Source of the DNA: a virus
Direction: 5' to 3' (one strand)
Length of the DNA: 64,000 nucleotides
IMG/VR virus record: IMGVR_UViG_3300021375_000018
Coordinates: 23,119-87,118 of that record
Shown here: positions 5,201-44,902 of the stretch, piece after piece
Layout: each line of letters opens with the position of its first letter
Position numbering within the stretch: position 1 is the stretch's first letter
The notes under the pieces: model-generated
What the model was told of the DNA's origin: nothing
Seen by the model: only the letters and a program-made list of their open reading frames with translations
The model's database searches: none
Translations under genes and position numbers: made by a program

Positions 5201-6578
5201 AGTTAATGAATCAAAAATGAATACAGTGTTTCTTACTAGACCTGATCGTAATAAGGTTATTAGCAATGTCTTAACTTCTTTTGACAAAGACTTACCTTTA
5301 AGAGTATTGCCATCCCAGGCTTCTATTACAATGTTTGGATGTCCTTACTTAAACTTTGCACAATTTATTTACTTAGACTTTGAAACAGGAACAACAATTG
5401 ACAATACTTATAGCGTCGCTAGTCTTAAACATAGCATAACACCCGGGTCTTTTAAAACAACAGCAACACTTACTTATGGAGATGTTTATGGAAAATATGA
5501 AGTTGCACAAGGTATTATATCAGATGTGATAAAAAGAATAGATGATATAGAGGAACCTAAAACAGTTGAAATTGGCAATAATGATAGCACAAAAGTTAAA
5601 GTTGCAAGCAATAATAGTAGTATTAAAAAGACTATTGTTATAAGGAAAATTAAAAGAGAAGATGTTTTTGACAAAGAATTAAGTATCTTCTTGTTTTCGT
5701 TAGCAAAAGAATATAAATTTAATTTTAACGTAAACTTTAAAAACAGCAATAAAAACAAAATACATTTTGAAATTGACAACAATAAAGGTAGAAAAATAGC
5801 AGCAAAGTCTAGCCTTAATAATATCAACTCAAATATTGAAATTACCAGCGAAAGTTCTGTTACAAAATTTGACTTTAAATACGATGCTTTTATATTTAAA
5901 AATTTTAGTAATACAGAAAAACTAACAGAAATACCTTTTGTAATAAAGTCTTATGAGATAAACAAGAAAAATAAATTGTTTGCTATTGATCTTTTGCAAA
6001 CTGAAAAAAATGAAAGTATTCTTACAAATATCTTTAGTCATAACTTCTTTTTAAAATTTAAAAATATTCCAACATCTATAATAGGAAGTTGTTCAGGCTC
6101 AACTTTAGAAATAGACGCTTTTTATATTGATTTTACTTCTAATAAACATAAAAAAGTTTTAGAAATAGAAAATGGTACAGAAATTAATTTTCTTGGTAGC
6201 ATTTTTCCTCTTATAAATCCAGACATAGATACGATTGCAAATCCTCCTATAATAAGTTATTATATAACAAGAGAAATAGAAGTAGTAAACAAATTATATT
6301 TTGTAACTGTAGAGGTTTCACAAGATAAAGATATTGTTGATCAATTAAAATCAAAATATGAGTCAAGAATTGTAATTAATAATATTAGTTTAAACGATTT
6401 AAGTAGAAAATATGTTAATGATATTAAAAAACTTCCTGATGATTTAACGAAAGTTGTTAAAGATACGTTTTATAGTAAACACAGTGACAAACCAGAAGAA
6501 GAAAAATTTAAAATTTATATCCCAGTCAGTATAATAACAAATTTATTTTTTCAAAATATATTTGAAGTTATAAATTAA
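2298..6578 (+). CDS. Large tail/baseplate hub-like structural protein
   Basis: The product has 1426 residues and no enzymatic motif that I recognise. Two stretches look like beta-rich hub modules: residues about 345-410 (SFDIDVAPSQGLMSFKTGRL, then FGSFGAEITIEYGWSH) and about 1000-1075 (SQASITMFGCPYLNFAQFIY, then SITPGSFKTTATLTYGDVYG). The second resembles the conserved end of phage baseplate-hub and tail-spike proteins. Long lysine- and asparagine-rich linkers separate them. The ribosome site is weak (AAAAAAGTAG). The gene is followed by a promoter, so it probably ends the tail operon. Confidence 0.55.
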   Translation: MSKNSISALRASKVSKFLNILSESDTVKHLNRQKESGTSSDEITSSAADAISDMFQSISREAMTTYEILKHMHENYTDADIKKVSDKIKILHSSLTYDITTKPKTTPKSEVGNPTNANSPFILKQNDKYFGRFNSKYRKDVMGINSPDPDVVVGIEAFGQFNKDNKAKNTQDKKMISVNSKPKSPNPIAPGLSIILHNDANFRCGSRNALELATFWNILSNIEMSKCYPFLNATFSLPKILRQKSSVTSFKTSTINQFIDGTLVPENKTDTYDFFEASIGKTLNNKSKKRETELGVDANFSIFTSPQTLNNFNENSGHLENFMSKEGNSFKSSIKNRITTPHDLTRPFMTIKSFDIDVAPSQGLMSFKTGRLSLVLHDRTRMGDIAPFIKPDLFGSFGAEITIEYGWSHIDVGDNKTSDNKNYIAEFLNDSRVVEKYIITNSSFRIDKAGLVNIDLAIAMRGPLDIRQAFIEGNSSKKVSSNQIKLDLNNLQGNLIKLQRECIRFNNDDAANNPENKSVIINGLNDSLLNFIKKTALDSFTIKVYKKDKAFNKAIKDFVNLEGKKLNKKFNKINNDDSENDLFKFSSGQEKSLINNDGINSVKKEVIKSIKSLQASIIGHIVSLRGNKKDREDIFNDLHFNVEIDAFFDKNWYVSRTGKKNATGKDKNKALKELKEGTTFDGYITFGSIINKIVATHLTNLGKFDETQVIFYTANEFCGEMSSRNIASFLISKEEYKLFLNDIFTNKNRYTIESFLGLVIKEFIEDKSQIMYGFSDLFKKKDTNSYKKVPIEKKTEDFKEKVDARLKEIYAAQAGGKKLNKSFDFKMPRVGFTFDTLTSKEDNYNRVISRLSIYDKNDNPFGSLNSIMKELNASEGVLKLNNELTKLRKEHASKSGSSLPYEFYEKSQKIIEKFTPNFIEEDPNNKGVYIIKNSSNGVASLKNKFKEMMPSITYGSQNSGIIDASLTTVNESKMNTVFLTRPDRNKVISNVLTSFDKDLPLRVLPSQASITMFGCPYLNFAQFIYLDFETGTTIDNTYSVASLKHSITPGSFKTTATLTYGDVYGKYEVAQGIISDVIKRIDDIEEPKTVEIGNNDSTKVKVASNNSSIKKTIVIRKIKREDVFDKELSIFLFSLAKEYKFNFNVNFKNSNKNKIHFEIDNNKGRKIAAKSSLNNINSNIEITSESSVTKFDFKYDAFIFKNFSNTEKLTEIPFVIKSYEINKKNKLFAIDLLQTEKNESILTNIFSHNFFLKFKNIPTSIIGSCSGSTLEIDAFYIDFTSNKHKKVLEIENGTEINFLGSIFPLINPDIDTIANPPIISYYITREIEVVNKLYFVTVEVSQDKDIVDQLKSKYESRIVINNISLNDLSRKYVNDIKKLPDDLTKVVKDTFYSKHSDKPEEEKFKIYIPVSIITNLFFQNIFEVIN

Positions 6579-23105: not shown

Positions 23106-24080
23106 TTGCCTATTAATAATAAATTAGATCCTGTAAAATTACCAATGAAACTTAAATTCAATCAAGAAGTAAAAACAAAATTTATAAACAATCTTGATTC
23201 TTTAAATATAGAGTTAATTGAAGGTCCAACTAGACATCAAGCAATGAATATTGCATGGAATATGACTAAAGCAACTTGGGCTGATGATCCTTCATTAACA
23301 CAATTAAGTCCATTCCAACTTAAAGAAGCATCTCAAAATCTACAAGATGTATTAAACTTTAGAGCACTTCCTACTCCTATGGAATGTCTAGGCTTTACAT
23401 TTAAAATCAGCGGAATTGATACTCAAACTGTTACTCATTTAATTAGACATAGAGCAGGATCATTTGCTGCACAGTGCACAGGTGATAGAGATCTTAGATT
23501 TGACAATATTTTAGTTCCTGAATCTGTAGAAAATTCAACTTTTTATAATAGATTTCAAAAAATTGCTAACGATGCAAAAAAACTATACGCAGACATGACA
23601 GATAGTAAGTGTATCTCAATGATGGACGCTCGAGTAATTCTTCCTAAATGCACAGAAACATTTTACATTGCTAGATTCAATCTTAAAGATTTGATTGGGT
23701 TTATCAAACAACGTCAAGATGTTCAAATTCAACCTGAGGTTGATAACATAATTGCAACAAGAATTGCGAGATTAGTTGTTGATAGAATTCCTGAAGTTTC
23801 TACATGTTTAGACTTTGAAAAACCTGATATGCACTATGTTCGAACATTTAGAGTTGAAATGCCTAATGGCGAGTATACTTCAAGAGGCACTAACTTGTAC
23901 CAACCAGAACCTAAAAATGATTTATTTGAATATAACGTGAATGATTCTATTTATCAATGTAGAAGAGAAGAGCTCAACGGAGATGTTCCTACAGATAACT
24001 CTAAAAACTTTACAATTATGTGGAACAAAGACGTACAATATATTAGTAATATTAAGAAACAATTTGAGGTGACCCTATGA
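23106..24080 (+). CDS. Divergent ThyX-superfamily protein
   Basis: The start is a TTG preceded by AAGGAG; no ATG fits. The 324-residue protein has a ThyX-like core: FTFKISGIDTQTVTHLIRH followed by RHRAGSFAAQCTGDRDLRF, where canonical ThyX has RHRxxSxNExSxRYT. RHR and Ser are kept, but the Asn-Glu and Ser-x-Arg-Tyr part is replaced. A later ARVILPKCTETFYIARFNLK and IKQRQDVQIQ match the helices that follow in ThyX. Substrate contacts must therefore differ. It may act on another pyrimidine nucleotide or transfer a different one-carbon group. The next gene starts inside its last codons. Confidence 0.7.
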   Translation: MPINNKLDPVKLPMKLKFNQEVKTKFINNLDSLNIELIEGPTRHQAMNIAWNMTKATWADDPSLTQLSPFQLKEASQNLQDVLNFRALPTPMECLGFTFKISGIDTQTVTHLIRHRAGSFAAQCTGDRDLRFDNILVPESVENSTFYNRFQKIANDAKKLYADMTDSKCISMMDARVILPKCTETFYIARFNLKDLIGFIKQRQDVQIQPEVDNIIATRIARLVVDRIPEVSTCLDFEKPDMHYVRTFRVEMPNGEYTSRGTNLYQPEPKNDLFEYNVNDSIYQCRREELNGDVPTDNSKNFTIMWNKDVQYISNIKKQFEVTL

Positions 24081-31110: not shown

Positions 31111-31176
31111 TTGTCTATTGAGTTAATAACACCACCAAATAGATTCGTATCTCTTCACTCACACTCAACATTTAAA
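31111..31176 (+). pseudogene. Truncated copy 1 of the dnaE N-terminus
   Basis: From a TTG behind AAGAAAGG the frame reads MSIELITPPNRF and VSLHSHSTF, the start of the DnaE PHP domain (the HxHS metal motif), and then runs into unrelated sequence that is the antisense end of the next gene. The frame remains open to 31305, but only about 21 codons are dnaE-like. It seems to be an abandoned 5' end of dnaE. Confidence 0.6.
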
Positions 31177-31190
31177 AGTATAAATTTAAA

Positions 31191-32189
31191 TTATTTTCCA
31201 CCATTTAACTTTTTATATAATAAATTTAAATTTCTTTCTAATGATTCTTCTCTATTACCTACTTCAAATTCATCTAATTCGTTTTCATACTTACTAAAGA
31301 TATAACCTTTTTTAGATACTTCAACATCTAAATCATATGCTAAATCACAATCTTCAATAATACCTGATAATGCTTCATATAACGCTTCTAAATCTTCTTC
31401 TCTATTTGTACTAAAATTAAAAGGACTTACTTCTTCTAAATATTGAGACATAGTTGACATGTAAAATCTAGGAGTACTAAAAATTCTATCTCTACAGTCA
31501 ATAGTGTCAACTATTATTTCATGACTACTACTGAATATATTAAATATTCCTTTTCCTCTTTTTAATAATTCTGACATTTCTTTCGACTTCGGAACAAACC
31601 TTATTTCAAGTATATTGTCTACTTTACATGATGACAAGTCTTTCAAAGAGTCTTCAAGTTTAAACGAAAGATAATTGCTGTGTGATGACTCAGGTAAATA
31701 TAATGCCATATACCAATTATTATCGCTAATATTACCTTTATTTGTAATAGGAGTAATATTATGGATAGCTTTAAGCTGTAAGTCTATCATATAGTCATGA
31801 TAGTCTCTGTCAAGATTTTCTTGGTTGTCTAAATAGTCAGTATATTTTTTTTGATCAAAAAAGAAGTGATCTGGATCTTTAATACTTGGATCGACATAAT
31901 CTTTACTTTCTGCATCTAATTCGTTTTCTTCTGGTCTTGTAAGACTAAATCTTGTCATGTCATACCACCAAGTTGCGTATATAGATTTTCCACCACCACC
32001 ACCTCCTCGTCTTTTCTGTAATTCTCCATTGTTTCCTCCTCCACCACTGCCACTTTTCTTTAATTCATTTTCTATGGTATTGAAAAAGTAGGTTTGTTTT
32101 TCTTTTGACGAATCACGAAACTCATTAATAAAATTCTGTTTCCATTCAGTTAATAGTTCTTTAAACTCGCTTCTGTTTAGTTTACTCAT
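31191..32189 (-). CDS. Targeting-peptide protein, EFKELLxEW family (332 aa)
   Basis: The leader MSKLNRSEFKELLTEW, then KQNFINE, is almost identical to that of the 32349 gene. After it come two glycine-rich runs (about residues 47-70, SGSGGGGNN and GGGGGGKS), like flexible linkers, and then a 260-residue body of unknown function with acidic C-terminus. The body does not obviously match its neighbours, so the leader is the shared part. It is flanked on both sides by dnaE 5' copies. Confidence 0.55.
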   Translation of the reverse strand: MSKLNRSEFKELLTEWKQNFINEFRDSSKEKQTYFFNTIENELKKSGSGGGGNNGELQKRRGGGGGGKSIYATWWYDMTRFSLTRPEENELDAESKDYVDPSIKDPDHFFFDQKKYTDYLDNQENLDRDYHDYMIDLQLKAIHNITPITNKGNISDNNWYMALYLPESSHSNYLSFKLEDSLKDLSSCKVDNILEIRFVPKSKEMSELLKRGKGIFNIFSSSHEIIVDTIDCRDRIFSTPRFYMSTMSQYLEEVSPFNFSTNREEDLEALYEALSGIIEDCDLAYDLDVEVSKKGYIFSKYENELDEFEVGNREESLERNLNLLYKKLNGGK

Positions 32190-32214
32190 TTATAATCCTT
32201 TGTAATTTTAATAT

Positions 32215-32245
32215 GTGTAAATTAAATATCAATTAATTATAATAA
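32215..32245 (+). promoter_or_regulatory. Promoter copy 2 of the displaced dnaE 5' unit
   Basis: The GTGTAAAT-N15-TATAATAA element is intact and followed by about 2.7 copies of a 15-base AT-rich repeat not present in the other copies. Confidence 0.6.
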
Positions 32246-32283
32246 ATAAAAAACAAATAAATAAAAAACAAATAAATAAAAAC
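32240..32283 (+). repeat. 15-base AT-rich tandem repeat in promoter copy 2
   Basis: The unit AAATAAATAAAAAAC recurs with 15-base spacing between the -10 box and the ribosome site. It lengthens this leader relative to the copies at 31057 and 36328. Confidence 0.6.
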
Positions 32284-32299
32284 AAGAAAGGTATATAAT

Positions 32300-32404
32300 T
32301 TGTCTATTGAATTAATAAAACCACCCGATAGATTTGTCCCATTTTTATCTATCCATGCGAGTATGTTTGAAGTAATATTTTATCTTCTAAAAAGCTTCCA
32401 ATAA
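32300..32404 (+). pseudogene. Truncated, diverged copy 2 of the dnaE N-terminus
   Basis: A TTG behind AAGAAAGG begins MSIELIKPPDRFVPFLSIHA, matching MSIELITPPNRFV of the other copies, then degenerates and stops after 34 codons. Its tail overlaps the antisense gene 32349-33341. This is the most diverged copy, so perhaps the oldest. Confidence 0.55.
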
Positions 32405-33341
32405 AGTTGTAACACATGTGTACTTTACTAAAAAACAGTTTTAAATATTCTATATCTTCTTGAGAAATTTCTGACACAATGCTTGAGCATTGATTTAAAA
32501 AAGCTTCTATTCCTTTTTCGTTATTTGGCAAAGACCTTATATGGTGTGCTACGCTTGCAAAGTTATCACCATCTCCTACACTGCTGCCTAATCTTGTCAA
32601 ACCGTCAGCTGACTGCCCGCCGGCGGCACCTTCTACAACAAATTTTTTAATGATCATGTTTAGATTCTTTTTATTATTAAATAAATCATTAAGCTCGATA
32701 TAAGGCGCAAAACTTTCGTTGGCAAGTATATCTTCAAAGTAGTGAAAGACATCATGCTTTAATTCCCATTGTAAGTGACTCTTCCACACTTTTTGATCAG
32801 AAATATTAAGTATATTGTTGATCGATCCACTAGCCATTTCATCAACCATATTAATCATTCTAGGGAAGTATATCATGAGACCAACATTGTCGCTAGCTAA
32901 TCTTTGCAAGTCTCTTTTTGACTGGGCTATTTGGTCTTTTATGTTTTGTTTTTTTTCTTCAACCTTTACGTTATTCATACTCATATCTTTATAAAACAAA
33001 TTCTCTTTGTTAAGAAGATCATTGAAAACTAAATCTAATATCTCTAGAATCTCTGTAATACTATTTTTATGAAGAATAATGCTACTTTCGTAGGCTTTGT
33101 AAACACTTTTGCTCCTAGACATAACATCATGCATAAAACTACCGAATGTATGCTCACTTATAGAAAAATCTCCGATAGCATACAAATTTAAATCAATTGG
33201 GACTTTTTTGACATAATCTTTTTGTGTAGGCGTTAACCCTTTAAAATCAACTAAATTTGTATTGACAGTTCTTTCATTTATAAAGTTTTGTTTCCATTCA
33301 GTTAACAACTCTTTAAATTCTTTTCTACTTAACTTGCTCAT
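32349..33341 (-). CDS. Targeting-peptide protein, EFKELLxEW family (330 aa)
   Basis: The leader MSKLSRKEFKELLTEW, then KQNFINE|RT, gives an IxE site. The body contains LQWELKHDVFHYFEDIL, whose HDxxH pattern matches HDFMH in the 25755 protein, and VGDGDNFASVAHHI, which matches its GDNSASV segment. The two are therefore distant paralogues. HDxxH might bind a metal, but no third ligand is clear. Its antisense 3' end overlaps a dnaE 5' relic. Confidence 0.55.
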   Translation of the reverse strand: MSKLSRKEFKELLTEWKQNFINERTVNTNLVDFKGLTPTQKDYVKKVPIDLNLYAIGDFSISEHTFGSFMHDVMSRSKSVYKAYESSIILHKNSITEILEILDLVFNDLLNKENLFYKDMSMNNVKVEEKKQNIKDQIAQSKRDLQRLASDNVGLMIYFPRMINMVDEMASGSINNILNISDQKVWKSHLQWELKHDVFHYFEDILANESFAPYIELNDLFNNKKNLNMIIKKFVVEGAAGGQSADGLTRLGSSVGDGDNFASVAHHIRSLPNNEKGIEAFLNQCSSIVSEISQEDIEYLKLFFSKVHMCYNFIGSFLEDKILLQTYSHG

Positions 33342-33383
33342 TTGTAATCCTTAGTAATTTTTATACGTGTGATTAAATATTAT

Positions 33384-33437
33384 TTAATTCATTTCAGTTA
33401 ATAACTCTTTAAATTCTCTTCTGCTTAACTTGTTCAT
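33384..33437 (-). pseudogene. 17-codon orphan leader of the EFKELLxEW family
   Basis: The reverse strand reads MNKLSRREFKELLTEMN and stops. It is preceded by the family ribosome-site sequence (AAGGATTATAA), which here overlaps the end of the next gene. It is a leader without a body, next to a degenerate GTGTGATT element at 33367 that looks like the remnant of another dnaE promoter copy. Confidence 0.6.
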
Positions 33438-36302
33438 TTATAATCCTTGGTAACTTATTATTTCTTTAATATATCTTTCTAGCAAAATTTTAGAATTTTC
33501 TAAATATTTAACTTCTATTAAATTTAAATTTTTAAGAGCTTTTTCAAGATTTATTCTATTCTTTTTAATAGACATTCCTTTTTCACTACTAATCAAAGAA
33601 TTATAAAAAGTTATCATTGATTTTGTTGATATATCTAATTTAGATAAAATATCCAACGACGTTCTGCCCCTGTGATTAACATTAGAATTGTATTCAAGTT
33701 TTTCATACATTTCAACAACAATCTTATTTAATAAAGACTTGTTAGCTAATTTTACAAATTCATTTGAAATTTCAGGTATCTCTAGCATTTTATATGTTTT
33801 ATTTATATACATCAAATCATGATAAACAAAAGAAGGACCTCTTCCTTTTTTAGGTAGTGTATTTCTAATTATATACAAATAATTTTCTGTAGAAGTGTAA
33901 TCATATTCTAAGAAAAACTTTATACTATCATAATCTGACGTTTTTAAATTTTTAATAATATTTTTTTGTTGATTATGATTAATTAATATTTTGTTTTGAC
34001 TTATGACGCCTACCAGGATATTCATTGCATGCTTTGTTATTTTTATTTTTTTCATTCTATTAATAATATTATTAATTAAAAGAACAATGACACTGTCATC
34101 TATATCTAAAGACTCACGTAATGTATATAAGTCAAAAATAACTGTTGTAAGCTTTTTCTCTGAATTAGCATTTAAAGATAAAGAATTAAGTAACTCAATA
34201 TTATCTGACATGTTTTTTTCTAATTTACTCTTTTTTTCTTCTGGCAATAAATGTTTAAAATTGCTAGTAAAGTATAGAATACAATAACTATTTTTATCAT
34301 TTGAATTTTGATCCTCTTCAGCAATGCTATGTTTTTTAGGAAGTTTGTTGCTCTTTATATTAGCATCAAGCGAATCAATTTGTTCTAAGAAATCATAAGT
34401 TGCATTTACAAGTTTTTTCATGTAGATACTATCTGTATTTAGAAAACTAATTATTGGACCGTCTTCATTAAAAAATCTATATGATGAATAAAGTAGACTA
34501 AAAAGTCTTTCAATGTCTGATGTAATTTTTAATTTTTTTAATCTAGCCTTGTCATTTAAAATGACAAATAGCTCATAAAATGATTTTGTTGGGTCAATAT
34601 TTTGTTCATCATCACTTTTTAATATTTTTAATACTTCAGATACACTTCCATAAAAATCGTGGTCTGGAGATTCAAAATAAGTTAATAGTTCTTCATATTC
34701 TTCATAACTTTCTTGCTTTACTTTGTTTAAGTAATTAATAGAATAGTCTAATTTCTTTAAACTAGAATTGTTTGTCAAAAGACTCATGTTGTATTCTTTG
34801 TCAAATTCTTCAGGAAATTTTTCTACAAGAGCTTTGGTGTATTCTATATTTTTTATTATAATTTTTTTAATTTCATCGTATTCGTGTTTAACTAAAAATG
34901 ATAAGAGACTTAAGCTTTTATCAATTTCAATTAAATCTTTTCTACGAGACAAACTTTTAGATGAAGCCCTATCTTTTTTAATTGTCTCAATAACATCTTG
35001 ATTAAAGCTCTCAATTTTTGCTCTATCTATAATGAGACTTCTAATTTTAATATTTTTATCTTCTATTAAAACTTCTACAACATATTCATAAATATCATCG
35101 TCCATTAAATGCATATTGTATACTAGTGCTTGTCTAATGTAAACATTCTCGTCATCACAAGAGTAAACTATAATTTTATTTCTATCTCTAGAATGTCTAA
35201 TTATCATATTAAATTGTTGTACGAATTCTGATGGGTTTTCTTGTACTCTTCTTGTATTTACGTATGCTTCAAAGCTTACTGTTTTAAGGTAAGCAATGTA
35301 GTCAAAATCTTTTTTTTCTGGAAGCTTGGAGTTTTCTTCGATTATGTTAAAAACATTTCCTAATGTAGATTTAAACCACTCAATATCTCTTGAGCTATTG
35401 TTACCGTCAACGCACATGTATGGTTGTTTATTTCCAGCAAATTCTATTCTATTGTTTAATTTAACAAATGATAAACAAAGCTTTCTTTTAGAAAATTCTT
35501 CTTTTTGTATTTTGTCACCTTTTTCTAAAGAATTAAACTCATTTAAATCATCAAAGCTTTTAAACTTTTTAATTGCATAGTACATGTGCATATTGCCTGA
35601 TTTAAATTGTAAAAATGCATTTGCGCCTTCAGAAGAAGTACACCAAGTCATTTTTTTTGTAAGTTTACCGTAACCGGTTATAGCTGTTTTATCGTATACT
35701 AACTCTTTTCCTATATATACACTTCTAGCTAATATTTTTGATGCAAATTGTTTATTTGGATAAAATACTATCCAGTCATTATCTTCATATATTAATTCAA
35801 AAATATTGCTTTTTTTTGAATATGATTGCTTAAATTCTTTAGATAATACATCTTGTGTTTTCTTACTTGATAAACCGGATTTTTCTCTTCTAACATTTAA
35901 CCATGAAATAATATCTTGATACGTTGCTGTTTGCGCTGGATCATTATGACCTTTATTAAAATTTAACTTTTCATTTAAATCATGTTTAGTTCCATCACTT
36001 AGTTCTATTACTAAGTCTTCTGTCCTATTTCTTTTAGATAAAATATGTGTTTTATATTCTTCGTATAACAATATAAATTCTTCAACGCCGTGTATATCTC
36101 CTGAATTGTAAGAATTAATTATTATAGCATTAAAATAAACATCTTGAAGTTTTCCTAATCTACTTTTATTAATATTAAATTCATTATAGATTTCTTCATC
36201 TAAATTTAATTTTAAATCTTTTTCTGAAGCCTCAGAAAGAATTAAAAAATCTTTCCAGTCTATTAAAATCTTTTTAGCTTCTTTTCTGTTTAGTTTGCTC
36301 AT
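33438..36302 (-). CDS. Large targeting-peptide protein with WCTS domain (954 aa)
   Basis: The leader MSKLNRKEAKKILIDW, then KDFLILSE, is the most diverged of the family. Residues about 100-330 share a domain with the 42986 protein: NDWIVFYPNKQFA, ARSVYIG, KMTWCTSSEGANAF, MHMYYAI, KLCLSF and YMCVDGNN. The remaining 600 residues are helical and repeat-like, without the clear repeat unit of the 42986 protein. The WCTS domain looks globular with conserved polar residues; I do not know its activity. Confidence 0.6.
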   Translation of the reverse strand: MSKLNRKEAKKILIDWKDFLILSEASEKDLKLNLDEEIYNEFNINKSRLGKLQDVYFNAIIINSYNSGDIHGVEEFILLYEEYKTHILSKRNRTEDLVIELSDGTKHDLNEKLNFNKGHNDPAQTATYQDIISWLNVRREKSGLSSKKTQDVLSKEFKQSYSKKSNIFELIYEDNDWIVFYPNKQFASKILARSVYIGKELVYDKTAITGYGKLTKKMTWCTSSEGANAFLQFKSGNMHMYYAIKKFKSFDDLNEFNSLEKGDKIQKEEFSKRKLCLSFVKLNNRIEFAGNKQPYMCVDGNNSSRDIEWFKSTLGNVFNIIEENSKLPEKKDFDYIAYLKTVSFEAYVNTRRVQENPSEFVQQFNMIIRHSRDRNKIIVYSCDDENVYIRQALVYNMHLMDDDIYEYVVEVLIEDKNIKIRSLIIDRAKIESFNQDVIETIKKDRASSKSLSRRKDLIEIDKSLSLLSFLVKHEYDEIKKIIIKNIEYTKALVEKFPEEFDKEYNMSLLTNNSSLKKLDYSINYLNKVKQESYEEYEELLTYFESPDHDFYGSVSEVLKILKSDDEQNIDPTKSFYELFVILNDKARLKKLKITSDIERLFSLLYSSYRFFNEDGPIISFLNTDSIYMKKLVNATYDFLEQIDSLDANIKSNKLPKKHSIAEEDQNSNDKNSYCILYFTSNFKHLLPEEKKSKLEKNMSDNIELLNSLSLNANSEKKLTTVIFDLYTLRESLDIDDSVIVLLINNIINRMKKIKITKHAMNILVGVISQNKILINHNQQKNIIKNLKTSDYDSIKFFLEYDYTSTENYLYIIRNTLPKKGRGPSFVYHDLMYINKTYKMLEIPEISNEFVKLANKSLLNKIVVEMYEKLEYNSNVNHRGRTSLDILSKLDISTKSMITFYNSLISSEKGMSIKKNRINLEKALKNLNLIEVKYLENSKILLERYIKEIISYQGL

Positions 36303-36382: not shown

Positions 36383-36496
36383 TTGTCTATTGAATTAATA
36401 ACACCACCAAATAGATTTGTATCTCTTCACTCACACTCAACTTTTTTAAAACTTAGTATGTTATTTTGGGAAGGCAAATTAAATACGTGTAAATAA
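36383..36496 (+). pseudogene. Truncated copy 3 of the dnaE N-terminus
   Basis: From a TTG the frame reads MSIELITPPNRF and VSLHSHSTF, then 16 unrelated codons, and stops at 36496 inside the promoter of the present dnaE. It breaks at the same codon (HSHSTF) as copy 1. Confidence 0.6.
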
Positions 36497-36550: not shown

Positions 36551-38326
36551 ATGAATAATACATTTAATACGGAAAGGAGGTATCTAGAGAAGGTTGAACT
36601 TGAACTGCTTACACCTAACAGATTTGTTAGCTTGCATTCGCATTCAACCTTCTCGTAGATATCTACGTTTGATGGATTAGGTTATCCAGCAGATCACATC
36701 AACTTTGTTCTTTCTGAATCTCAAGGTATGGATGCTTGGGCTTTAACAGATCATGGAAACGGCAACGGTCTTGCTCATGCTCATTCACATGCTGTTAAAA
36801 TGCAAAAGAAAGGTCAAAAGTTTAGACAAATCTACGGTGTTGAATTCTATTTTGTACCTTCTCTAGAACAATGGTCAAAAGAATACTCAGATCATCGTCA
36901 AGCAGTCAAAGATGCAAAAACAGCAGCAGCTGCTGAAAAGAAATCAAAAGAAAAAGTTGATATCGATGCTGATGATGAAAGTGGTGGTTTAGTTATTGAA
37001 GACGAAGAAGAAACAAAGAAAATCGATATCCTTAAAGATGAATGGAAACGACGTTATCACCTTGTAGTCACTGCACGCAATAGAAAAGGCTTAAACAATC
37101 TTTTTACTCTTGTTAAGAAATCATATAAATATGGATTCTATCGATATCCTCGAATTGACTTTAAAATGTTAAAAGAACACGGTGAAGGTCTTCATGTATC
37201 AACAGCATGTTTAGGCGGACTTTTTAGCAATAGAATTCTAAGAGGTAATGCTCACAATAAATCACGTGATGAAATACAAAAAGATCTTCTAAACTTAACA
37301 GATAGATTTACAGACGCAGTTGGTTTAGAAAACTTTAAACTAGAACTACAATTTAACAAACTTAATAAGCAACACATTGTCAATGATTATTTGATAGAAC
37401 ATCATAAGCTAACAGGTATTCCATTGATATCTACAGCAGACTCACACTATCCAACAAATGATAAATGGCAAGCAAGAGAACTATACAAGAAACTTGGATG
37501 GTTAGGAAAAAAAGATGGAATGACTTTACCTACATTTGAAGATCTTAAATGTGAGTTATATCCAAAAAATGCACAACAAATGTGGGATGAGTTTTTAGAA
37601 TCATATCCTCTATATGATTTCTATAAAGGTAACGAAGAACTAGTCAAAGAATCAATTGAAAGAACACATGATATTGTATGGGAAAACTTTGAAGATACAT
37701 GGATCGATGTAGGTGCAAAACTACCTACGATATCAATTCCTAATAAAACGCCATTTCAGCACTTATGTGATTTAGTTAAAAGTGCTTTAATCAAAGAAGA
37801 ACTTCATAGTAATAAAGAATACGTTGAACGCGCAAAGTATGAATTATCTGATATTAAATACTTAGGCCATGCAGCTTATTTTATTACAATGTATGAGATC
37901 TTTAAAAAAGCTGAAACAAAGACTTTATTTGGAGCAGGACGTGGATCAGGTGCAGGTAGCTTAGTTAATTATCTTTTAGGTATTACTCAAATTGATCCGA
38001 TACCTTACAACTTACTTTGGAGCAGATTCTTAGGTAGACATAGATGTTTGGATGAAGACATATACATAATGTCTGAAAGTGGTAAAAAGAAACTTAAAGA
38101 TGTTGTTGAAGGCGAAAAAGTATTAACACATACAGGACAATATCAAAGAATTCTTGACAAAGCTGTGACACAACATGACATGGCAATTGAAATAAAGTTT
38201 AATGGTCGCAATATTATTTGTTCTCCTAATCATAGATGGATTATTAATCGCGATGGCGCCGAAGTAGAAACGATGGCATGTCACTTAAAAAAAGGTGACA
38301 AACTTATAAAAAATATACATACTTGA
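36551..38326 (+). CDS. dnaE: DnaE (DNA polymerase III alpha) part 1 plus N-half of split intein 1; in-frame TAG near start
   Basis: The ATG at 36551 has AAGGA upstream and reads 35 codons, ending RFVSLHSHSTFS, the first PHP metal motif. A TAG at 36656-36658 then interrupts; after ATA TCT the frame continues in register as TFDGLGYPADHINF. The PHP domain goes on (ALTDHGNGNGLAHAHSHA, YGVEFYFVP, STADSHYPTND) and the polymerase begins (FGAGRGSGAGSLVNYLLG). After GRHR, 38045-38326 encode an N-intein: CLDEDIYIMSESGKKKLKDV (block A) and IICSPNHRWII (block B), ending at a normal stop. Without bypass or readthrough only a version lacking the first PHP motif could be made, for example from ATG 36728, which has a poor ribosome site. 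Confidence 0.82.
36581..36661 (+). promoter_or_regulatory. Long stem-loop and stop-containing palindrome in dnaE 5' end
   Basis: TATCTAGAGAAGGTTGAA at 36581-36598 is complementary to 36643-36661 with one bulged G, giving an 18-bp stem and a 44-base loop that encodes LLTPNRFVSLHSH. The 3' arm overlaps a perfect 14-base palindrome, CGTAGATATCTACG (36654-36667), which holds the in-frame TAG. A perfect AAGGAGGT anti-ribosomal site lies just before the stem (36574-36581). Structure in exactly this place suggests translational control or recoding, or it may be the scar of a rearrangement. Confidence 0.6.
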
Positions 38327-39400
38327 TATAGTTAATCCAAGAAAACATTTCCGGAGAAAGTTTTATGGAAGAAAAAGAATATCGAAAAAATATTAGCTGC
38401 AAAAACTGTAAGATAGAATTTATTGTAAGATTTAAAATGTCAGATCAAGGTTCTATTGCAAAGTGCAATAAACTATATTGTAGTAAATTATGCAAAAAAG
38501 AATATCTTAAAAAAAATGGTACAAGTAATTCTATAGAACTTGTGTGTAGATATTGCAAATGCACTTACTATAAGCCTGAATCACTTTCAAAAAACTCAAA
38601 ATTCTGTAGTAGAGTTTGCCAAAATAGAAGTTATGCCAGTAGAAACAAGAAAGAAAAAAAGAACATTAATTGTAAAAACTGCAATAAAACTTTTATTGTT
38701 ATAGAAAACTCTAAAAGAAAGTACTGCAGTCATGAATGTAGTCATGCTGGACAAAAAGGCAAGACAAAAATATTTACATGTGCAGTCTGCAAGGAAGAAA
38801 AGCACATACTTGAAAATGACAATAGGATGTATTGTGGTAGAAATTGCCAGTATAAGGCACAGTCTTTAGGTTTAATTAAGATTCCAACAAAAGGAAGATC
38901 AGGTTATAGAACTGATTTGCCTGATGATATGCGTTTTAAAAGTTCACTTGAAGCAGACTATGCAAGATTTTTAAAATATAAAAAAATAGACTTTAAATAT
39001 GAAAGTAAGTGCTTTGAGCTTATTGACAAAGGTAAAATAAGAAGATATACACCAGACTTTTACATAGAAAAAGAAGGCTTATATGTTGAATTAAAAGCAG
39101 GTAGAAAAGACAAGAAATACTCTAAAAATTTAGAGTGCGTGCAATTAGTAAAAAATATTGGTTACAATATAAAAGTAATATACATGTCGGAATTTTATGA
39201 CATGCTTAAGAAAGAAAAATTATATGAGGAGATTCCAAACATTGAAAGACGCAACTACAAAAAGTCAAGACACCTTATACGAAATTGAAGAAATTAATTT
39301 TGTTCACTATACTCGAGATATGATTGATATTGAAGTAGAAGGTGATCACACTTTCTATATTTCAGAAAATCCTGACGCTGATTTTGTTTTGACACATAAT
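38045..39400 (+). mobile_element. Split intein 1 of dnaE with endonuclease gene in the gap
   Basis: The element consists of the N-intein (38045-38326, 94 codons, Cys1), a free endonuclease gene (38365-39288) and the C-intein (39242-39400, about 53 codons, ending VLTHN). The flanking exteins join as GRHR then TSWPDIDTD, placing the intein just before the catalytic Asp motif of the polymerase. This matches the 'fractured gene' arrangement of split inteins with an endonuclease gene in the break. Residues needed for trans-splicing (Cys1, block B His, terminal His-Asn, +1 Thr) are all present. Confidence 0.85.
38365..39288 (+). CDS. Homing endonuclease, four zinc fingers plus PD-(D/E)XK domain
   Basis: The 307-residue protein has its own GGAGAAAG ribosome site and four Cys4 fingers (CKNCKIEF...YCSKLC, CRYCKCTY...FCSRVC, CKNCNKTF...YCSHEC, CAVCKEEK...YCGRNC) in residues 11-165. 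The nuclease part has SSLEADYARFLKYK, YTPDFYIEKEGLY and VELKAGRKDKK, giving E...PD...ExK. It is paralogous to the 27016 protein. It lies between the halves of intein 1 and would cut intein-free dnaE, driving homing. Its 3' end overlaps the start of the C-intein ORF by 47 bases. Confidence 0.85.
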   Translation: MEEKEYRKNISCKNCKIEFIVRFKMSDQGSIAKCNKLYCSKLCKKEYLKKNGTSNSIELVCRYCKCTYYKPESLSKNSKFCSRVCQNRSYASRNKKEKKNINCKNCNKTFIVIENSKRKYCSHECSHAGQKGKTKIFTCAVCKEEKHILENDNRMYCGRNCQYKAQSLGLIKIPTKGRSGYRTDLPDDMRFKSSLEADYARFLKYKKIDFKYESKCFELIDKGKIRRYTPDFYIEKEGLYVELKAGRKDKKYSKNLECVQLVKNIGYNIKVIYMSEFYDMLKKEKLYEEIPNIERRNYKKSRHLIRN

Positions 39401-40894
39401 ACAAGCTGGCCAGACATTGATACTGATGCAGGTGATAGAGATGAACTAATAAATGCTGCAAGAGAATTATATGGTAACGATGCTGTTATCCCAGTTTCAA
39501 ACTTCAACACTCTTAAGCTTAAGTCTCTTGTCAAAGATATTGCAAAGTTTTATGATATTCCTTTTGACGAAGTCAATAAAGTCACAGGACCTTTACAAGA
39601 ACAAGTCATGCAACTTGCTATGGATAAAAATCAAGAAAAGTCTGTATTTGTTTTAAAACATGAAGATTGTATGAAATATTCAGTTGAATATAATGAGTTT
39701 ATGACAAAGTATCCAGAAGTTGCTGAACATGTTGAAACTCTGTTTATGCAAAACAGAGCTATTGGTAGACATGCTGGAGGTGTTATAATAGCAGATGCTG
39801 ATAAGCTTGAACAATCAATGCCAATTGTTGGTGTTCGAGGTGAATTACAAACACCCTGGACTGAAGGTATGAACTTTAGAAATCTTGAAGATAATGGCTT
39901 TCTTAAGTTTGATTTCTTAGGATTAACACTGCTTAAAGATGTAGAAAATTGTATTTATCGTATTCTTAAAAAGAAGGGTAATGAAAATCCAACATTTTTA
40001 GATGCAAGATCTTTCTTTGACAAACATTTAAATTGTAGATACGTTAAACAAGATGATCTTAAAGTTTGGGAACACGTTTATAAAAATGGTAGATTTTGTG
40101 GAATATTTCAATTTACTGCTCCTGGCGCTAGAAATTTTGCAATAGAAGCTGAACCTGATTCTATTGAGGAATTGGCTGCGCTAACTGCGATTTATCGTCC
40201 GGGACCACTTAAAGCAAATGTCCATAAGAAATATGTTAAGGCTAAAAGAAATGTTGCAGACATCAAGTATGATCACCCTATCATTGAAAAGATACTAGGC
40301 CCAACATACAACTATGTAGTATTTCAGGAACAATTTATGTTATTGGCTCAAGAGCTAAGTGGCTTTAATCCTGGTGAAGCTGATAAACTTAGAAAAACAT
40401 TAGTTAAAAAATCATTAGATACACTTCATTCTAAAGGATCAGAGAAAGCAATTGCTAGAGAAAAGTTTATAAAGGGTGCTAAAGAGTTGAACGACGTTCC
40501 CGAGCACATATCGTCTAAGTTATGGGCAGACATAGAAAACTTCGCGGTTTACGGCTTTAATAAAAGTTTACTGTTTAATACTTTAGTAGATACTTATGAT
40601 TATAATGGAAATTATTTAGAAACAAAGGAGATTAAAGATGTTATTCCTGGGGTTTATGTTAAGTCAAGAGACGAAGAAACAAAAGAAGATATCTTTACAC
40701 AAGTATTGGCAAATCATGATCATGGAGAAGTGCCAACTTTTAAGATTACATTGGAGGATGGACAAAGTGTTGAATGTACAATGCATCATAAGTTTAGAGT
40801 TGAAGATGGAAGGATGTTGCCGCTATGGTACATAATACAAGAAGATCTTTCGATTGTGTGTGTGGAAAAAGTTTTGCAAACAACTCCAGTTTAA
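39242..40894 (+). CDS. dnaE: DnaE part 2, with C-half of intein 1 and N-half of split intein 2
   Basis: I chose the TTG at 39242, with GAGGAG ten bases upstream. Codons 1-53 are the C-intein (block F IDIEVEGDHTFYISEN, block G VLTHN). The extein then runs TSWPDIDTDAGDRDEL, the polymerase active site, through NRAIGRHAGGVIIADAD, TAIYRPGPLKANVHKKYV, VVFQEQFMLLAQELSGF to ENFAVYGFNK. From 40565 an N-intein begins with Ser: SLLFNTLVDTYDYNG (block A-like), FKITLEDGQSVECTMHHKF (block B) and a C-terminal tail to the stop at 40894. The polypeptide therefore needs splicing at both ends. Confidence 0.87.
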   Translation: MKDATTKSQDTLYEIEEINFVHYTRDMIDIEVEGDHTFYISENPDADFVLTHNTSWPDIDTDAGDRDELINAARELYGNDAVIPVSNFNTLKLKSLVKDIAKFYDIPFDEVNKVTGPLQEQVMQLAMDKNQEKSVFVLKHEDCMKYSVEYNEFMTKYPEVAEHVETLFMQNRAIGRHAGGVIIADADKLEQSMPIVGVRGELQTPWTEGMNFRNLEDNGFLKFDFLGLTLLKDVENCIYRILKKKGNENPTFLDARSFFDKHLNCRYVKQDDLKVWEHVYKNGRFCGIFQFTAPGARNFAIEAEPDSIEELAALTAIYRPGPLKANVHKKYVKAKRNVADIKYDHPIIEKILGPTYNYVVFQEQFMLLAQELSGFNPGEADKLRKTLVKKSLDTLHSKGSEKAIAREKFIKGAKELNDVPEHISSKLWADIENFAVYGFNKSLLFNTLVDTYDYNGNYLETKEIKDVIPGVYVKSRDEETKEDIFTQVLANHDHGEVPTFKITLEDGQSVECTMHHKFRVEDGRMLPLWYIIQEDLSIVCVEKVLQTTPV

Positions 40895-41802
40895 ATAGTC
40901 ATCAAAAAAAATGTAATGTATTTTTAGAAAAGTCAACTGAGGGTATTGATTATATAGAGTGTAGAGTTTGTGGATATATTGGTAAAAATATTACATCTCA
41001 TGTTAAAAAGCATCATTCTTTATCTAAAGCTGAGTATGAAGAAAAATATGGGTCTACTATATGTGAGAAAACAAGAGGTATATATGCTGTAAATGGTGAT
41101 TGGATAACAAGAGCAAAAGAACGAGGTGATGATTTATCTGAATATTATGAGAAGTTAAGTGATAAAATATCAGAGGGTATTATGAAGTCTGACGCTGCTC
41201 GAGAAGCTAGAAGAAAGAATCTTTCTAGTTTGAACAAGACAAAAGAGTTTAGAGATAGATCATCAAAAACAGCTAAGAAAACATCAGAAAGAAAAGATAT
41301 ACAAAAAGAAAGATCAGAAAGGCTTGCTAGATGGAGGTTAAGTAATCCAGAAGAGTTTTATGAAAAATGTACATCTGTTATGCACAAGTCTTGGCAGTCA
41401 AAACCAGAAATTGATTTATTTAAAAAAGTAGACAGTATATTCCCTAATATGTTCAAAAGAAATCAAATTCTTAAAAGAACAGGTAAGTTTTTAACTACAA
41501 AAACAAATATTAGACAAATTGATATTATGTCGTTAGAAGATAAAATTATAATTGAGTTTGATGGTATACATCATTTTAAAGATGTTTTCAAGAAAAAAGG
41601 AAACTTGCAAGAAGTTAATAAAAAAGACAAAGAGTTAAATGAAGTTCTTGTTGAAGAGGGTTGGACTGTAATTAGAGTTTCTTATGATGAGTATGACTAT
41701 AAAGACAATGGTACGTTTAATCAAGAAACATTAGATAAAGTAAGAAAAATAATAACAAATAAAACACGTGGTTTGTGGTTGTTTGGTAAGTCATACGTGT
41801 AA
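40825..41802 (+). CDS. EDxHD (Vsr-like) homing endonuclease
   Basis: The 325-residue protein begins with C2H2-like fingers (CVCGKSFANNSSLNSHQKKC, then CRVCGYIGKNITSHVKKHHS). A SLSKAEYEEKYGS module and a basic helical spacer follow (about 110-190), then a nuclease domain: KPEIDLFKKVDSIFP, RQIDIMSLEDKIIIEFDG and IHHFKDV, followed by DKELNEVLVEEGWTVIRVSY. The E, D, H and D positions fit the Vsr-like EDxHD homing nucleases found in split-intein gaps. It overlaps the N-intein ORF by 70 bases. Confidence 0.82.
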   Translation: MVHNTRRSFDCVCGKSFANNSSLNSHQKKCNVFLEKSTEGIDYIECRVCGYIGKNITSHVKKHHSLSKAEYEEKYGSTICEKTRGIYAVNGDWITRAKERGDDLSEYYEKLSDKISEGIMKSDAAREARRKNLSSLNKTKEFRDRSSKTAKKTSERKDIQKERSERLARWRLSNPEEFYEKCTSVMHKSWQSKPEIDLFKKVDSIFPNMFKRNQILKRTGKFLTTKTNIRQIDIMSLEDKIIIEFDGIHHFKDVFKKKGNLQEVNKKDKELNEVLVEEGWTVIRVSYDEYDYKDNGTFNQETLDKVRKIITNKTRGLWLFGKSYV

Positions 41803-41827
41803 ATTAATATTAAATATTATATTATAA
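41797..41827 (+). promoter_or_regulatory. Phage promoter, GTGTAAAT-N15-TATTATAA
   Basis: Its upstream box overlaps the stop codon of the endonuclease gene. It gives the third dnaE fragment its own transcription start. Confidence 0.6.
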
Positions 41828-41848
41828 AACAAAAAAGAAAGGTTGATA

Positions 41849-42925
41849 ATGCCTCGTATTAAATCAATTGAATTTACTAATAAGCAGCAGACATTTGACT
41901 TGGAGGTTGCGCATCATGATCATCAATATTATTTAAGTAATGGGATTCTTCAATCAAACTCCCATGCTGTTGCTTATGCAATTGGTTCGTATTATGCTGC
42001 TTGGCTACACACACATTATGAGCCTGAATGGCTTGCTGCTATTTTACAGTCTGAAAATGGTAACCCTAAGGATATGTCAAAAGCAATATCAGAGATTAAA
42101 TCTTTTGGATACGAAATTGCTGCTATAGACATTAATCATTCAGGTACAGAATGGGAATATTCAGAAGAGTTAAAAGCATTTGTTCCACCTTTGACATCAC
42201 TTAAAGGTGTAGGAGATAAAGCTGTTGAAGAAGTATTTAGAAATCGCCCTTATAAAGATTTAAATAATTTGTTTTATGATGAAGAAGGTAAATGGAAACA
42301 TTCAAAATTAAATAAAACAGCATTCGTTTCACTTGCAAAAATGGAATCATTTAAATCATTGGAAGAATTTAAAAGTGGAAAACTGAAACATCACAAGCAG
42401 CTTCATGATATGCTGATTGAAAATTATAATGACCTTAAAAAGGGTGAGTGGGGAATAACAAAGACAGCATATAAAAGAATGATTAAAAAAGGTGAGGTGC
42501 CTATTAAAATAGTAGATAGGTTATCAGATGAGTATGAGTTATTAGATGATTGGACAAGATCTGAGAAGATTAAAAATTATTTTGAGTTATCTAATGATGC
42601 ATCTGATGATTTGTTATTTCCTCCTGAGTTATTGCAGAGGTTAAAAGATAAGTCTGTTAATTCTGTATTTGAGATAGAGAGTGGTAAAAAAGGAATTGGG
42701 TGGTTTACAGTAGTAGAAGTTATAAGAAAGACAACGAAGACTGGCAAGCCTTTTATGAGATGGAAATGTGTTGATTCTGATAATCGTAGTGGATGGTTAA
42801 GAGTGTGGGGAAATATAGATGATGATATAGAGTATGCGACTTGGATGTCTGAAGTTAAGAATGATGGTGGATGGGGAATGTCAACTAATTCAAGTAAAGT
42901 TAGAAAAATCAGTGCTTTTGATTAA
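41849..42925 (+). CDS. dnaE: DnaE part 3, with C-half of split intein 2
   Basis: The ATG at 41849 has AAAGG upstream; a TTG two codons earlier is less likely. Codons 1-37 are the C-intein (MPRIKSIEF, TFDLEVAHHDHQYYLSNG, ILQSN). The extein starts SHAVAYAIGSYYAAWLHTHY, continues with the helix-hairpin-helix region (LTSLKGVGDKAVEEVF), and ends with an OB-fold-like segment (GWFTVVEVIRKTTKTGKPFM). Together the three exteins make about 1200 residues, a normal DnaE length, so nothing large is missing. Confidence 0.87.
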   Translation: MPRIKSIEFTNKQQTFDLEVAHHDHQYYLSNGILQSNSHAVAYAIGSYYAAWLHTHYEPEWLAAILQSENGNPKDMSKAISEIKSFGYEIAAIDINHSGTEWEYSEELKAFVPPLTSLKGVGDKAVEEVFRNRPYKDLNNLFYDEEGKWKHSKLNKTAFVSLAKMESFKSLEEFKSGKLKHHKQLHDMLIENYNDLKKGEWGITKTAYKRMIKKGEVPIKIVDRLSDEYELLDDWTRSEKIKNYFELSNDASDDLLFPPELLQRLKDKSVNSVFEIESGKKGIGWFTVVEVIRKTTKTGKPFMRWKCVDSDNRSGWLRVWGNIDDDIEYATWMSEVKNDGGWGMSTNSSKVRKISAFD

Positions 42926-42985: not shown

Positions 42986-44902
42986 TTATAGTAAGTATTT
43001 GATATAGCTTCTTAACAGAGCTTCATTTGTATTACTTGATAGTTTTGACAAATCATAAGTTCTATTAATAGCTGTTCTAACCCAATCTGCAGGATCTTGT
43101 GCTAGCTTTCTAATTATTTCACCTGAAGGGTCTATTTCTAATAAATCTTCACGATTAGCTATATTTCTTCTAACAAAACCAGCATCATCATTAGCTAACT
43201 TTCTAATTATTTCACCTGAAGGGTCTACTACTAATAAATCTTTATTTGCAGCTATATACCCTCTAACAGAATGACTTTCGTCTGTAGTTAGTTGTCTAAT
43301 TAACTCACCTGTAGCGTCAACTTCTAGTAAATCATTACGATCTGCTATGTTAACTCTAACATCTTCGTTTTCATCTTTAGCTAGTTGTTTGATTAACTCA
43401 CCTGAAGTGTCCATTTTCAATAAAGTTTTATTTGCAGCTATATCTTTTTTGTGACGTTTATCTTTTAATAGTTTTTTTATTAGCTTACCTGAAGCATCTA
43501 ATTGTAATAAATTTTGATATTGTATAATATTATCACGTAAAAACCCACCTTTTTTGTAGAGCTTTTTAATTAATTTACCTGATGAGTCTATTTTTGAAAA
43601 ATCATATTTTCTACATATTTTTCCTGCTATAGAAAAATCATCTAACCTTGTAATTAGCTGTCTAATTATCTCACCTGTAGGGTCAGCTTCTAACAAATCT
43701 TTGCGATTAGCTATTGCATTTATAACACTATCACTTTTATCTTGAGCTAGCTGTTTGATTATTTCACCTGAAGGGTCAGCTTCTATAAGATTACCAGATT
43801 CTGCTAAAGTACATTTAATATCAATATTATCTTCTTTGATTACTAATAATAATATCTCTTTTCTGTCTCTTGAATACTCTAATATTCCTTTTAATTCTTC
43901 AGAAAAATCTTCTAAATTGTCTTCATTCGCAGCTCTTAATATTTCATACTGCTCTAAATTTATCGACTCATAATAAGATTTATAATTTATTTCTAGTCTC
44001 TCAGGCTTTTCAACATCTTTAAATAAAGTATCAAACCTGTTGCTGATATAACTTTTAAACTCTTCTTCGCTAGTTGGTGTATTATTTCCGTCTACAGACG
44101 CTTGTCCTTCCATTAAGTTTACTTCGTTATTCTTCTTAGCAAAACTGATACATAACTTCCTATCAGGATCACTTATACTCATGTTCTTCTTTATACAATA
44201 ATACATGTGCAAATTAAGTCTTCTATGGTAGTTTAAAAACATATTCCCACCTGAAACTACACTTGTACACCAATTCATCTTTCCAATTATTCTACCTACA
44301 CCACCACTAACACTCTTATCGTACTCTAACTCACTGCCATTCCAGAATGATCTAGCTAGACTAATAGAGCCTTTAATCGTTTTAGGATAACATATGATCC
44401 AGTCAGAATCATTTATAATAACTTCAAAGTCTGGATTAACTGGCCCTTGTTTTAAGCAGTTGATATAAGCTTTAGACTTTAGAATCATTGAAGAAGAAGC
44501 ATCAAAGAATTTGAGCATATCATCATAAGTAATTTTTTTATCTTTTAGATCTTTTAAGCTTAGACTAGCTCTATATCCGCCAGGGACATCTACTTTTGCT
44601 TCTTCTCCCTTGTTCCATTTAGAAGCTATAAGATCTTTATAGTTTTTGTACTGTGCTACAATGTCTTCGATAGAGTGATTTTGATCTGAGCTGTAAGTAT
44701 TAATGATGACTTGTAAGAAGTTTTCATCTTTTATAAACTTATTATTTGGAGCTGCTTGTTTATTTAACTTTACTAGAGTATTATAATCATCTTCACCTAT
44801 AACTTCTATGACTTCATTACGACTTATTTCTAATAATAAGTTGTTATTTATGAAATTATGCCATTCAGTTAATATGTCTTTAAATTTATTTCTGTTTAAC
44901 AT
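42986..44902 (-). CDS. Targeting-peptide protein with WCTS domain and eight HEAT-like repeats (638 aa)
   Basis: The leader MLNRNKFKDILTEWHNF, then INNNLLLE, belongs to the EFKELLxEW family. Residues about 130-300 share the WCTS domain of the 33438 protein (SDWIICYPK, KMNWCTSVVSGGNMF, MYYCIKK, KLCISF, ASVDGNN). From about residue 370 eight units of 31-33 residues follow, each with D-x-(S/T)-G-(E/K)-x-I-(K/R), then LAxD and VRxxIAxRxDLLE. They resemble HEAT or variant leucine-rich repeats, which form a helical binding surface. Repeats are also similar as DNA, so their number can change by recombination. Confidence 0.65.
   Translation of the reverse strand: MLNRNKFKDILTEWHNFINNNLLLEISRNEVIEVIGEDDYNTLVKLNKQAAPNNKFIKDENFLQVIINTYSSDQNHSIEDIVAQYKNYKDLIASKWNKGEEAKVDVPGGYRASLSLKDLKDKKITYDDMLKFFDASSSMILKSKAYINCLKQGPVNPDFEVIINDSDWIICYPKTIKGSISLARSFWNGSELEYDKSVSGGVGRIIGKMNWCTSVVSGGNMFLNYHRRLNLHMYYCIKKNMSISDPDRKLCISFAKKNNEVNLMEGQASVDGNNTPTSEEEFKSYISNRFDTLFKDVEKPERLEINYKSYYESINLEQYEILRAANEDNLEDFSEELKGILEYSRDRKEILLLVIKEDNIDIKCTLAESGNLIEADPSGEIIKQLAQDKSDSVINAIANRKDLLEADPTGEIIRQLITRLDDFSIAGKICRKYDFSKIDSSGKLIKKLYKKGGFLRDNIIQYQNLLQLDASGKLIKKLLKDKRHKKDIAANKTLLKMDTSGELIKQLAKDENEDVRVNIADRNDLLEVDATGELIRQLTTDESHSVRGYIAANKDLLVVDPSGEIIRKLANDDAGFVRRNIANREDLLEIDPSGEIIRKLAQDPADWVRTAINRTYDLSKLSSNTNEALLRSYIKYLL
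43079..43790 (-). repeat. In-gene tandem repeat array, about 90-100 bases per unit
   Basis: The segment ATTATTTCACCTGAAGGGTC and close variants recurs at about 43124, 43205, 43664 and 43757 on the plus strand, with more diverged units between. It encodes the eight HEAT-like repeats of the antisense gene, so it is protein-coding and not a CRISPR or origin. Confidence 0.7.

Follow-up and report, generated by a model that had tools for sequence, protein, structure and literature searches.

The DNA polymerase III α gene, dnaE, in a window of 64,000 nucleotides of viral DNA (IMG/VR virus record IMGVR_UViG_3300021375_000018, positions 23,119 to 87,118; "the window" is this whole stretch, and coordinates are counted from its first base) quite probably carries the marks of three homing-endonuclease invasions: a short insert at its 5' end that opens with a stop codon, and two split inteins, each with an endonuclease gene. 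The source record of 87,118 bases contains tailed-phage genes, including those for a UvsX-like recombinase, a DnaB helicase, ribonucleotide reductase and a head protease. The dnaE exteins occupy 36551-38044, 39401-40564 and 41960-42922, on the plus strand, as are all features below unless stated otherwise. A preliminary description of the locus had placed dnaE in three open reading frames (ORFs); the three extein blocks are confirmed, but there are four ORFs, since an in-frame TAG at 36656-36658 closes the ORF that begins at 36551 after 35 codons. Beyond this break, extein 1 (36665-38044) encodes the rest of the PHP domain and the first part of the catalytic domain, extein 2 (39401-40564) the finger domain, and extein 3 (41960-42925) the HHH and C-terminal part, followed by a stop. 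Besides the TAG, the orphaned copies of the 5' end of dnaE and what is left of a third endonuclease had been overlooked. A second intact dnaE, which would have marked the locus as dead, was not found in the whole 87-kilobase (kb) record. Eighty relatives were fetched for comparison (labels such as L003 and L016 denote related contigs); in L003, dnaE is uninterrupted and has 97% identity to the window across the middle piece, and the dnaE relatives in a collection of named phages are all below 60% identity to the window's gene. In annotation, dnaE genes of this kind are wrongly called as several broken genes.

The stop-led insert

The new 5' ORF of dnaE (36551-36658) has 35 codons (MNNTFNTERRYLEKVELELLTPNRFVSLHSHSTFS) and closes with the TAG, which falls within a PHP motif. 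Intact relatives encode HSHSTFSTFDG at this place, but the window reads HSHSTFS-TAG-ATA-TCT-ACG-TTT-GAT, the motif continuing as TFDG, so that it has exactly 9 extra bases, of which the first codon is a stop and the last encodes Ser. The proposed stop-hop (36653-36664) comprises a take-off codon, TCG (36653-36655), a gap, TAGATA (36656-36661), and a landing codon, TCT (36662-36664), with translation resuming at ACG (36665). It should be noted that the insert creates a perfect 14-nucleotide palindrome, CGTAGATATCTACG, at 36654-36667. Palindromes in the gap region are strong only in the window, L006, L060 and L306 (L303 being borderline), and the palindrome was rejected as a general feature of the inserts because it is confined to these few variants.

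Homology searches with dnaE and the upstream endonuclease, together with pattern scans, showed that about 38 distinct loci have an insert at this position, in 25 distinct versions. Every one of the 25 has a stop codon directly 3' of the Ser take-off codon. For about 9 versions the search pattern required this stop, but it is equally present in each of the 16 recovered by homology, and the landing codon was part of no pattern. Written as take-off, gap and landing, the versions include TCG|TAGATA|TCT (the window), TCC|TAGGTA|TCT, TCC|TGAATAA|TCT, TCT|TGAAAAA|TCT, TCG|TAATAATA|TCA, AGT|TA|AGT, TCG|TGACCTAAA|TCG, TCG|TA|ACG, TCC|TAATGGA|ACC and, in L035, a pair of TCG codons separated by 35 nucleotides with a strong hairpin. 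TAG, TAA and TGA are all used, gap lengths are 2, 4-9 and 35 nucleotides, and resumption occurs in all three frames; therefore the set as a whole cannot be accounted for by read-through or by a single fixed frameshift. Scored by the wobble rules of Escherichia coli, which may not be those of the host, the landing codon re-pairs fully with the take-off tRNA in 14 of the 25 versions, including the TCG/TCT pair of the window; for a further 10 the pairing is confined to positions 2 and 3. In 5000 draws of random landing codons the means were 1.3 (full) and 4.1 (positions 2 and 3) and the maxima 6 and 12, although, as the variants are not all independent by descent, these statistics are only guides. 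When the landing codon is read 1 or 2 bases to either side, 0-1 matches remain; a shift of +3 gives 11 matches at positions 2 and 3, a consequence of the frequent use of ACN as the resume codon. Among the pattern matches set aside, L161, L247, L264 and others proved to be out-of-frame matches in intact genes or matches in unrelated genes, and the single match in cellular genomes is a false positive with TGG.

In the 12 codons that precede take-off, the ratio of nonsynonymous to synonymous differences (pN/pS) is 0.14, compared with 0.09 in the 19 codons after resumption and 0.17 over 100 codons further on; both flanks of the insert are translated and under purifying selection. Each of six insert-bearing contigs (23-240 kb) has only one dnaE, with an open frame of 954-1209 residues. 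The insert is a conserved feature and not a product of decay. Genes with the insert also have longer N-termini, with a median of 26 residues to the end of HxH, versus 18 in intact genes, and it may be speculated that the longer N-terminus carries a nascent-peptide signal.

The 5' cassette and a proposed stop-hop

Two orphaned copies of the resident dnaE 5' end lie upstream of the gene. The first (31111-31173) runs from a TTG start to HSHSTF and is cut at the F|S codon boundary; the second (36383-36445) follows the DNA of intact L003 as far as TCAACTTTT, where it breaks off. It is followed, at 36461-36478, by the last codons (..LFWEGK) of a deleted homing endonuclease that is complete in L006, L017, L054, L058, L059 and L060 and belongs to a family of about 300 residues with a zinc ribbon and the motif YTPDF..YEIKG, for which named phages gave partial matches only. 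In complete cassettes (L017, L084, L085, L058 and L059) the order is the orphaned old dnaE 5' end, which stops at or near HxH[ST]xF, the endonuclease gene, a new recoded 5' end, the stop-led insert and the rest of dnaE. The window DNA equals intact L003 to 36445, continues with the 5' junction of the endonuclease as in L084 and, from 36462, equals the 3' end of the L006 endonuclease and its cassette, with no difference between the two from the new start codon through to the stop; therefore the cassette has been kept and most of the endonuclease lost.

An endonuclease of this family lies upstream of dnaE in 27 of 36 loci with the insert and in 4 of 57 intact loci (Fisher P=9e-12); its presence upstream of an intact dnaE, as in L095, L098, L101 and L104, might be due to a diverged target site. 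In all 55 pairs of the window's clade, the cassette has diverged less at synonymous sites than the gene body has; between the window, L006 and L198 the cassette shows no synonymous difference, although the bodies differ at 0.48-0.62 of synonymous sites. In a tree of the following 180 residues, genes with the insert are interspersed among intact ones, and a minimum of 19 switches between the two states is needed, a number that is approximate because the tree supports are modest. These sequence comparisons indicate that the 5' cassette spreads horizontally. In L086, one dnaE is preceded by two orphan 5' fragments in succession (at 5071 and 5927), which suggests that the same site has been invaded repeatedly. 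In the window, the two orphan copies stand on either side of a 5.2-kb block with three minus-strand genes (31191-36302), as if this block had also entered through an event that duplicated the 5' end.

It is proposed that the endonuclease gene inserted at the codon boundary HSHSTF|S, leaving the old 5' fragment orphaned, and that it brought a recoded dnaE 5' end, linked to the gene via the short insert that opens with a stop codon. The endonuclease would cut the DNA of the conserved PHP motif (intact site CATTCACATTCAACTTTTAGCACTTTTGATGG) and the cassette would repair the gene with the recoded 5' end, the insert keeping the site uncuttable while ribosomes hop across it; in the window phage the endonuclease was later deleted almost entirely. 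With TAG in the A site, peptidyl-tRNA(Ser) on TCG would release, skip TAGATA, re-pair at TCT and allow translation to resume at ACG, so that the hop restores the ancestral HSHSTFSTFDGLGYP. We infer this hop in the window, and its efficiency, from the sequence. That the endonuclease family spreads by replacing the 5' end of dnaE, protected against itself by short stop-led inserts over which ribosomes hop, is considered probable.

The same arrangement might be used differently if translation terminates at the TAG and restarts downstream, to give a DnaE that lacks the first PHP motif, with the 35-residue peptide serving as a leader. Phages tolerate polycistronic coupling, PHP activity may be dispensable, and a conserved Met is found 19-21 codons downstream (for example, Met 36728 in the window). 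However, the 19 codons before this Met are the most constrained and encode TFDGLGYP as in intact genes, no Shine-Dalgarno sequence, consistent start codon or start codon with a ribosome-binding site was found between the insert and the Met, and nothing would hold a Ser-matching landing codon in place; restart is therefore regarded as unlikely. Read-through of the TAG by a suppressor or near-cognate tRNA, which would add X-Ile-Ser, accords with the in-frame insert of 9 nucleotides in the window, but elsewhere inserts of 5, 7, 8, 10, 11 and 38 nucleotides change the frame and all three stop codons are used, making this very unlikely. Among the frame-changing variants are those of L054, L061, L059, L099 and L035, which read-through could not rescue. 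Two forms of it were rejected: a suppressor tRNA, on the ground that no tRNA gene is present in the window, and recoding of TAG throughout the genome, as 7 of 52 ORFs in the window end normally at TAG and inserts elsewhere change the frame.

Removal of the insert from the RNA by an undescribed form of splicing or editing might draw on the palindromes of some inserts (CGTAGATATCTACG and TCGTAAAGTTACGA), but most inserts are of 5-12 nucleotides and have no shared structure, and this possibility is accordingly slight in the extreme. Group I and group II introns were rejected, their conserved catalytic RNA giving no Rfam match either at the 5' insert or in the intein gaps discussed below. There is, finally, hardly any likelihood that the gene is dead or damaged in assembly; although it contains several stops and fragments and one endonuclease is mostly deleted, the insert recurs across many independent metagenomes under purifying selection, in contigs that have no other dnaE.

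Several observations nevertheless weigh against the stop-hop and its spread. The number of changes in the tree is, as noted, approximate. No RNA stem-loop is common to the inserts, and a strong hairpin in the gap is present only in L035 (5' of dnaE, about 5540-5600), in which the 35-nucleotide gap is nearly all GC-rich hairpin, followed by TTTT, and also resembles an intrinsic terminator within a coding region; no endonuclease of the 5' family lies upstream in L035. The window gap is TAGATA, and inspection by eye of the table of variants revealed no Shine-Dalgarno-like motif near the landing codon. Ten of the 25 landing codons pair at only two of the three positions, and that of L094 pairs poorly. 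Synthetic stop-hops are usually inefficient, and some inserts might be scars resembling duplications, in which the final two bases of the Ser codon recur. Considered in isolation, the insert of the window, which has 9 nucleotides, could be read through. If the stop-hop is true, no large collection of short translational stop-hops from nature would precede these inserts, in which several gap lengths and codon pairs arose independently; the gene that holds them encodes a replicase and may, in addition, be divided at two points by inteins. About 25 natural variants in gap length, codon pair and stop codon, in a gene whose product looks essential and which is linked to a mobile endonuclease, make the rules and the origin of hopping testable.

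Split inteins and their endonuclease genes

The preliminary description placed intein halves at the ends of the dnaE pieces, and this is borne out by L003. Intein A consists of an N-half of 93 residues (38045-38323) beginning with Cys1 and a C-half (39224-39400, in a frame open from 39197) ending in DFVLTHN and followed by Thr at +1; intein B consists of an N-half of 109 residues (40565-40891) beginning with Ser1, related to the cyanobacterial DnaE split inteins, and a C-half (41849-41959) ending in GILQSN with Ser at +1. The proposed splice junctions are exact, since intact L003 has no extra base at either (FLGRHR^TSWPDIDTD and VYGFNK^SHA). Similarity to the Hint fold, the absence of which would have counted against the inteins, is supported. 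Pfam intein matches are below the cut-off, but comparison with PDB sequences matched the N-half of intein B to the Npu and Ssp DnaE split inteins (E about 1e-9) and the site-A intein of L025, a contiguous mini-intein of 141 residues, to gp41-1 (E=0.004) and a PolB1 intein (E=9e-5). An AlphaFold model of the latter, of modest confidence (predicted local distance difference test score, pLDDT, 65), gave Foldseek matches to hedgehog/intein folds with a probability of 1.00.

Each gap contains an endonuclease gene, as described previously. The first homing-endonuclease gene (HEG1, 38365-39288) encodes a zinc ribbon and a PD-(D/E)XK-like endonuclease. Inspection by eye shows a similarity to the 5' family, and the enzyme resembles T7-type endonuclease I, itself a PD-(D/E)XK enzyme, with a Pfam match (E=4e-5) below the cut-off. 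The second (HEG2, 40825-41802) encodes a Ros-type zinc finger and a DUF559/Vsr-like endonuclease with the motif EFDGIHH, and passes the cut-off for DUF559. Vsr-like nucleases have the PD-(D/E)XK core fold. The earlier assignment of the two endonucleases to unrelated families, zinc-finger PD-(D/E)XK and EDxHD, was therefore too strong.

Protein trans-splicing at the two split inteins would link three polypeptides to give a single DnaE of about 1200 residues. We infer splicing at both inteins, and the three-chain assembly proposed previously, by two split inteins with endonuclease genes, accounts best for the two downstream breaks, although the proposal had missed the 5' break at the TAG. It is very improbable that the three extein chains instead form a non-covalent complex with intein halves that no longer splice; the catalytic residues (Cys1 or Ser1, the terminal Asn and Thr or Ser at +1) and the exact junctions are retained in both the window and L016. 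Such a gene offers a natural three-piece assembly by two split inteins that must not cross-react, which is useful for splicing tools.

The double fracture was previously judged unusual, as it is, but it is not unique: L016 has the same fractures at A and B, and L054 has two split inteins in another combination of sites, one without an endonuclease at site A and one with its own endonuclease ORF at a fourth site, D (dnaE codon about 430). Only site B is fractured in L004, L009, L010 and L021, and site A is present in L015 (whose contig ends before B), L024, L048, L058 and L061. A third split-intein site, C (dnaE codon about 185), occurs in L013 and L022, each with its own endonuclease ORF. The double fracture is thus a rare variant of the known fractured-gene arrangement.

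Large proteins with similar-looking N-termini are encoded by minus-strand genes at 33438-36302 and 42986-44902, which bracket dnaE; no PHROG name was obtained for the former and the latter carries LDPSGEIIRQLA-type repeats. Genes similar to these are located upstream of dnaE in L013 and L021. In L299, a contig of 309 kb, dnaE matches occur at three separate places across 5 kb, together with a stop-led insert at the 5' end, and this is probably another multiply broken replicase.

Comparison with known systems

Genes fractured by a split intein, with an endonuclease gene alongside, are said to have been described by Dassa et al. in 2009, with an EDxHD endonuclease reportedly in about half of the loci. 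The window's dnaE is similar in that a conserved phage replication gene contains a split intein and a free-standing endonuclease gene in the gap, but differs in having two fractures and a third break that is not an intein, and the dnaE family has four intein sites. Intein B is homologous with the cyanobacterial DnaE split inteins (Npu and Ssp) and has the same GFNKSH motif at its insertion site; however, the site, GFNK|SHA, is four residues downstream of Y|CFNKSH, and intein B has an endonuclease gene and Ser1 instead of Cys1.

To our knowledge, bacteria and phages offer hardly any natural translational bypass other than that of gene 60 of phage T4. Gene 60 has a 50-nucleotide gap and a linked homing endonuclease, and the gap has been proposed to block cleavage while ribosomes bypass it (PMC5009743). 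Natural counterparts with shorter distances have long been presumed, and synthetic stop-hops in E. coli, with re-pairing codons on either side of a stop, skip a few nucleotides, but according to the same review no natural in-frame stop-hop is known (PMC5009743). The dnaE inserts resemble gene 60 in the stop directly after the take-off codon, the re-pairing landing codon and the link with a homing endonuclease. They differ in that their gaps are mostly of 2-9 nucleotides rather than 50, in having at least 25 natural variants, in a landing codon that often matches at two of three positions, and in having neither shared stem-loops (5' or at take-off) nor a landing Shine-Dalgarno sequence. Because these last elements are lacking, the inserts are not classed as members of the gene 60 group, although they would work in the same way. 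In contrast with the synthetic stop-hops of E. coli, the dnaE inserts are natural and conserved.

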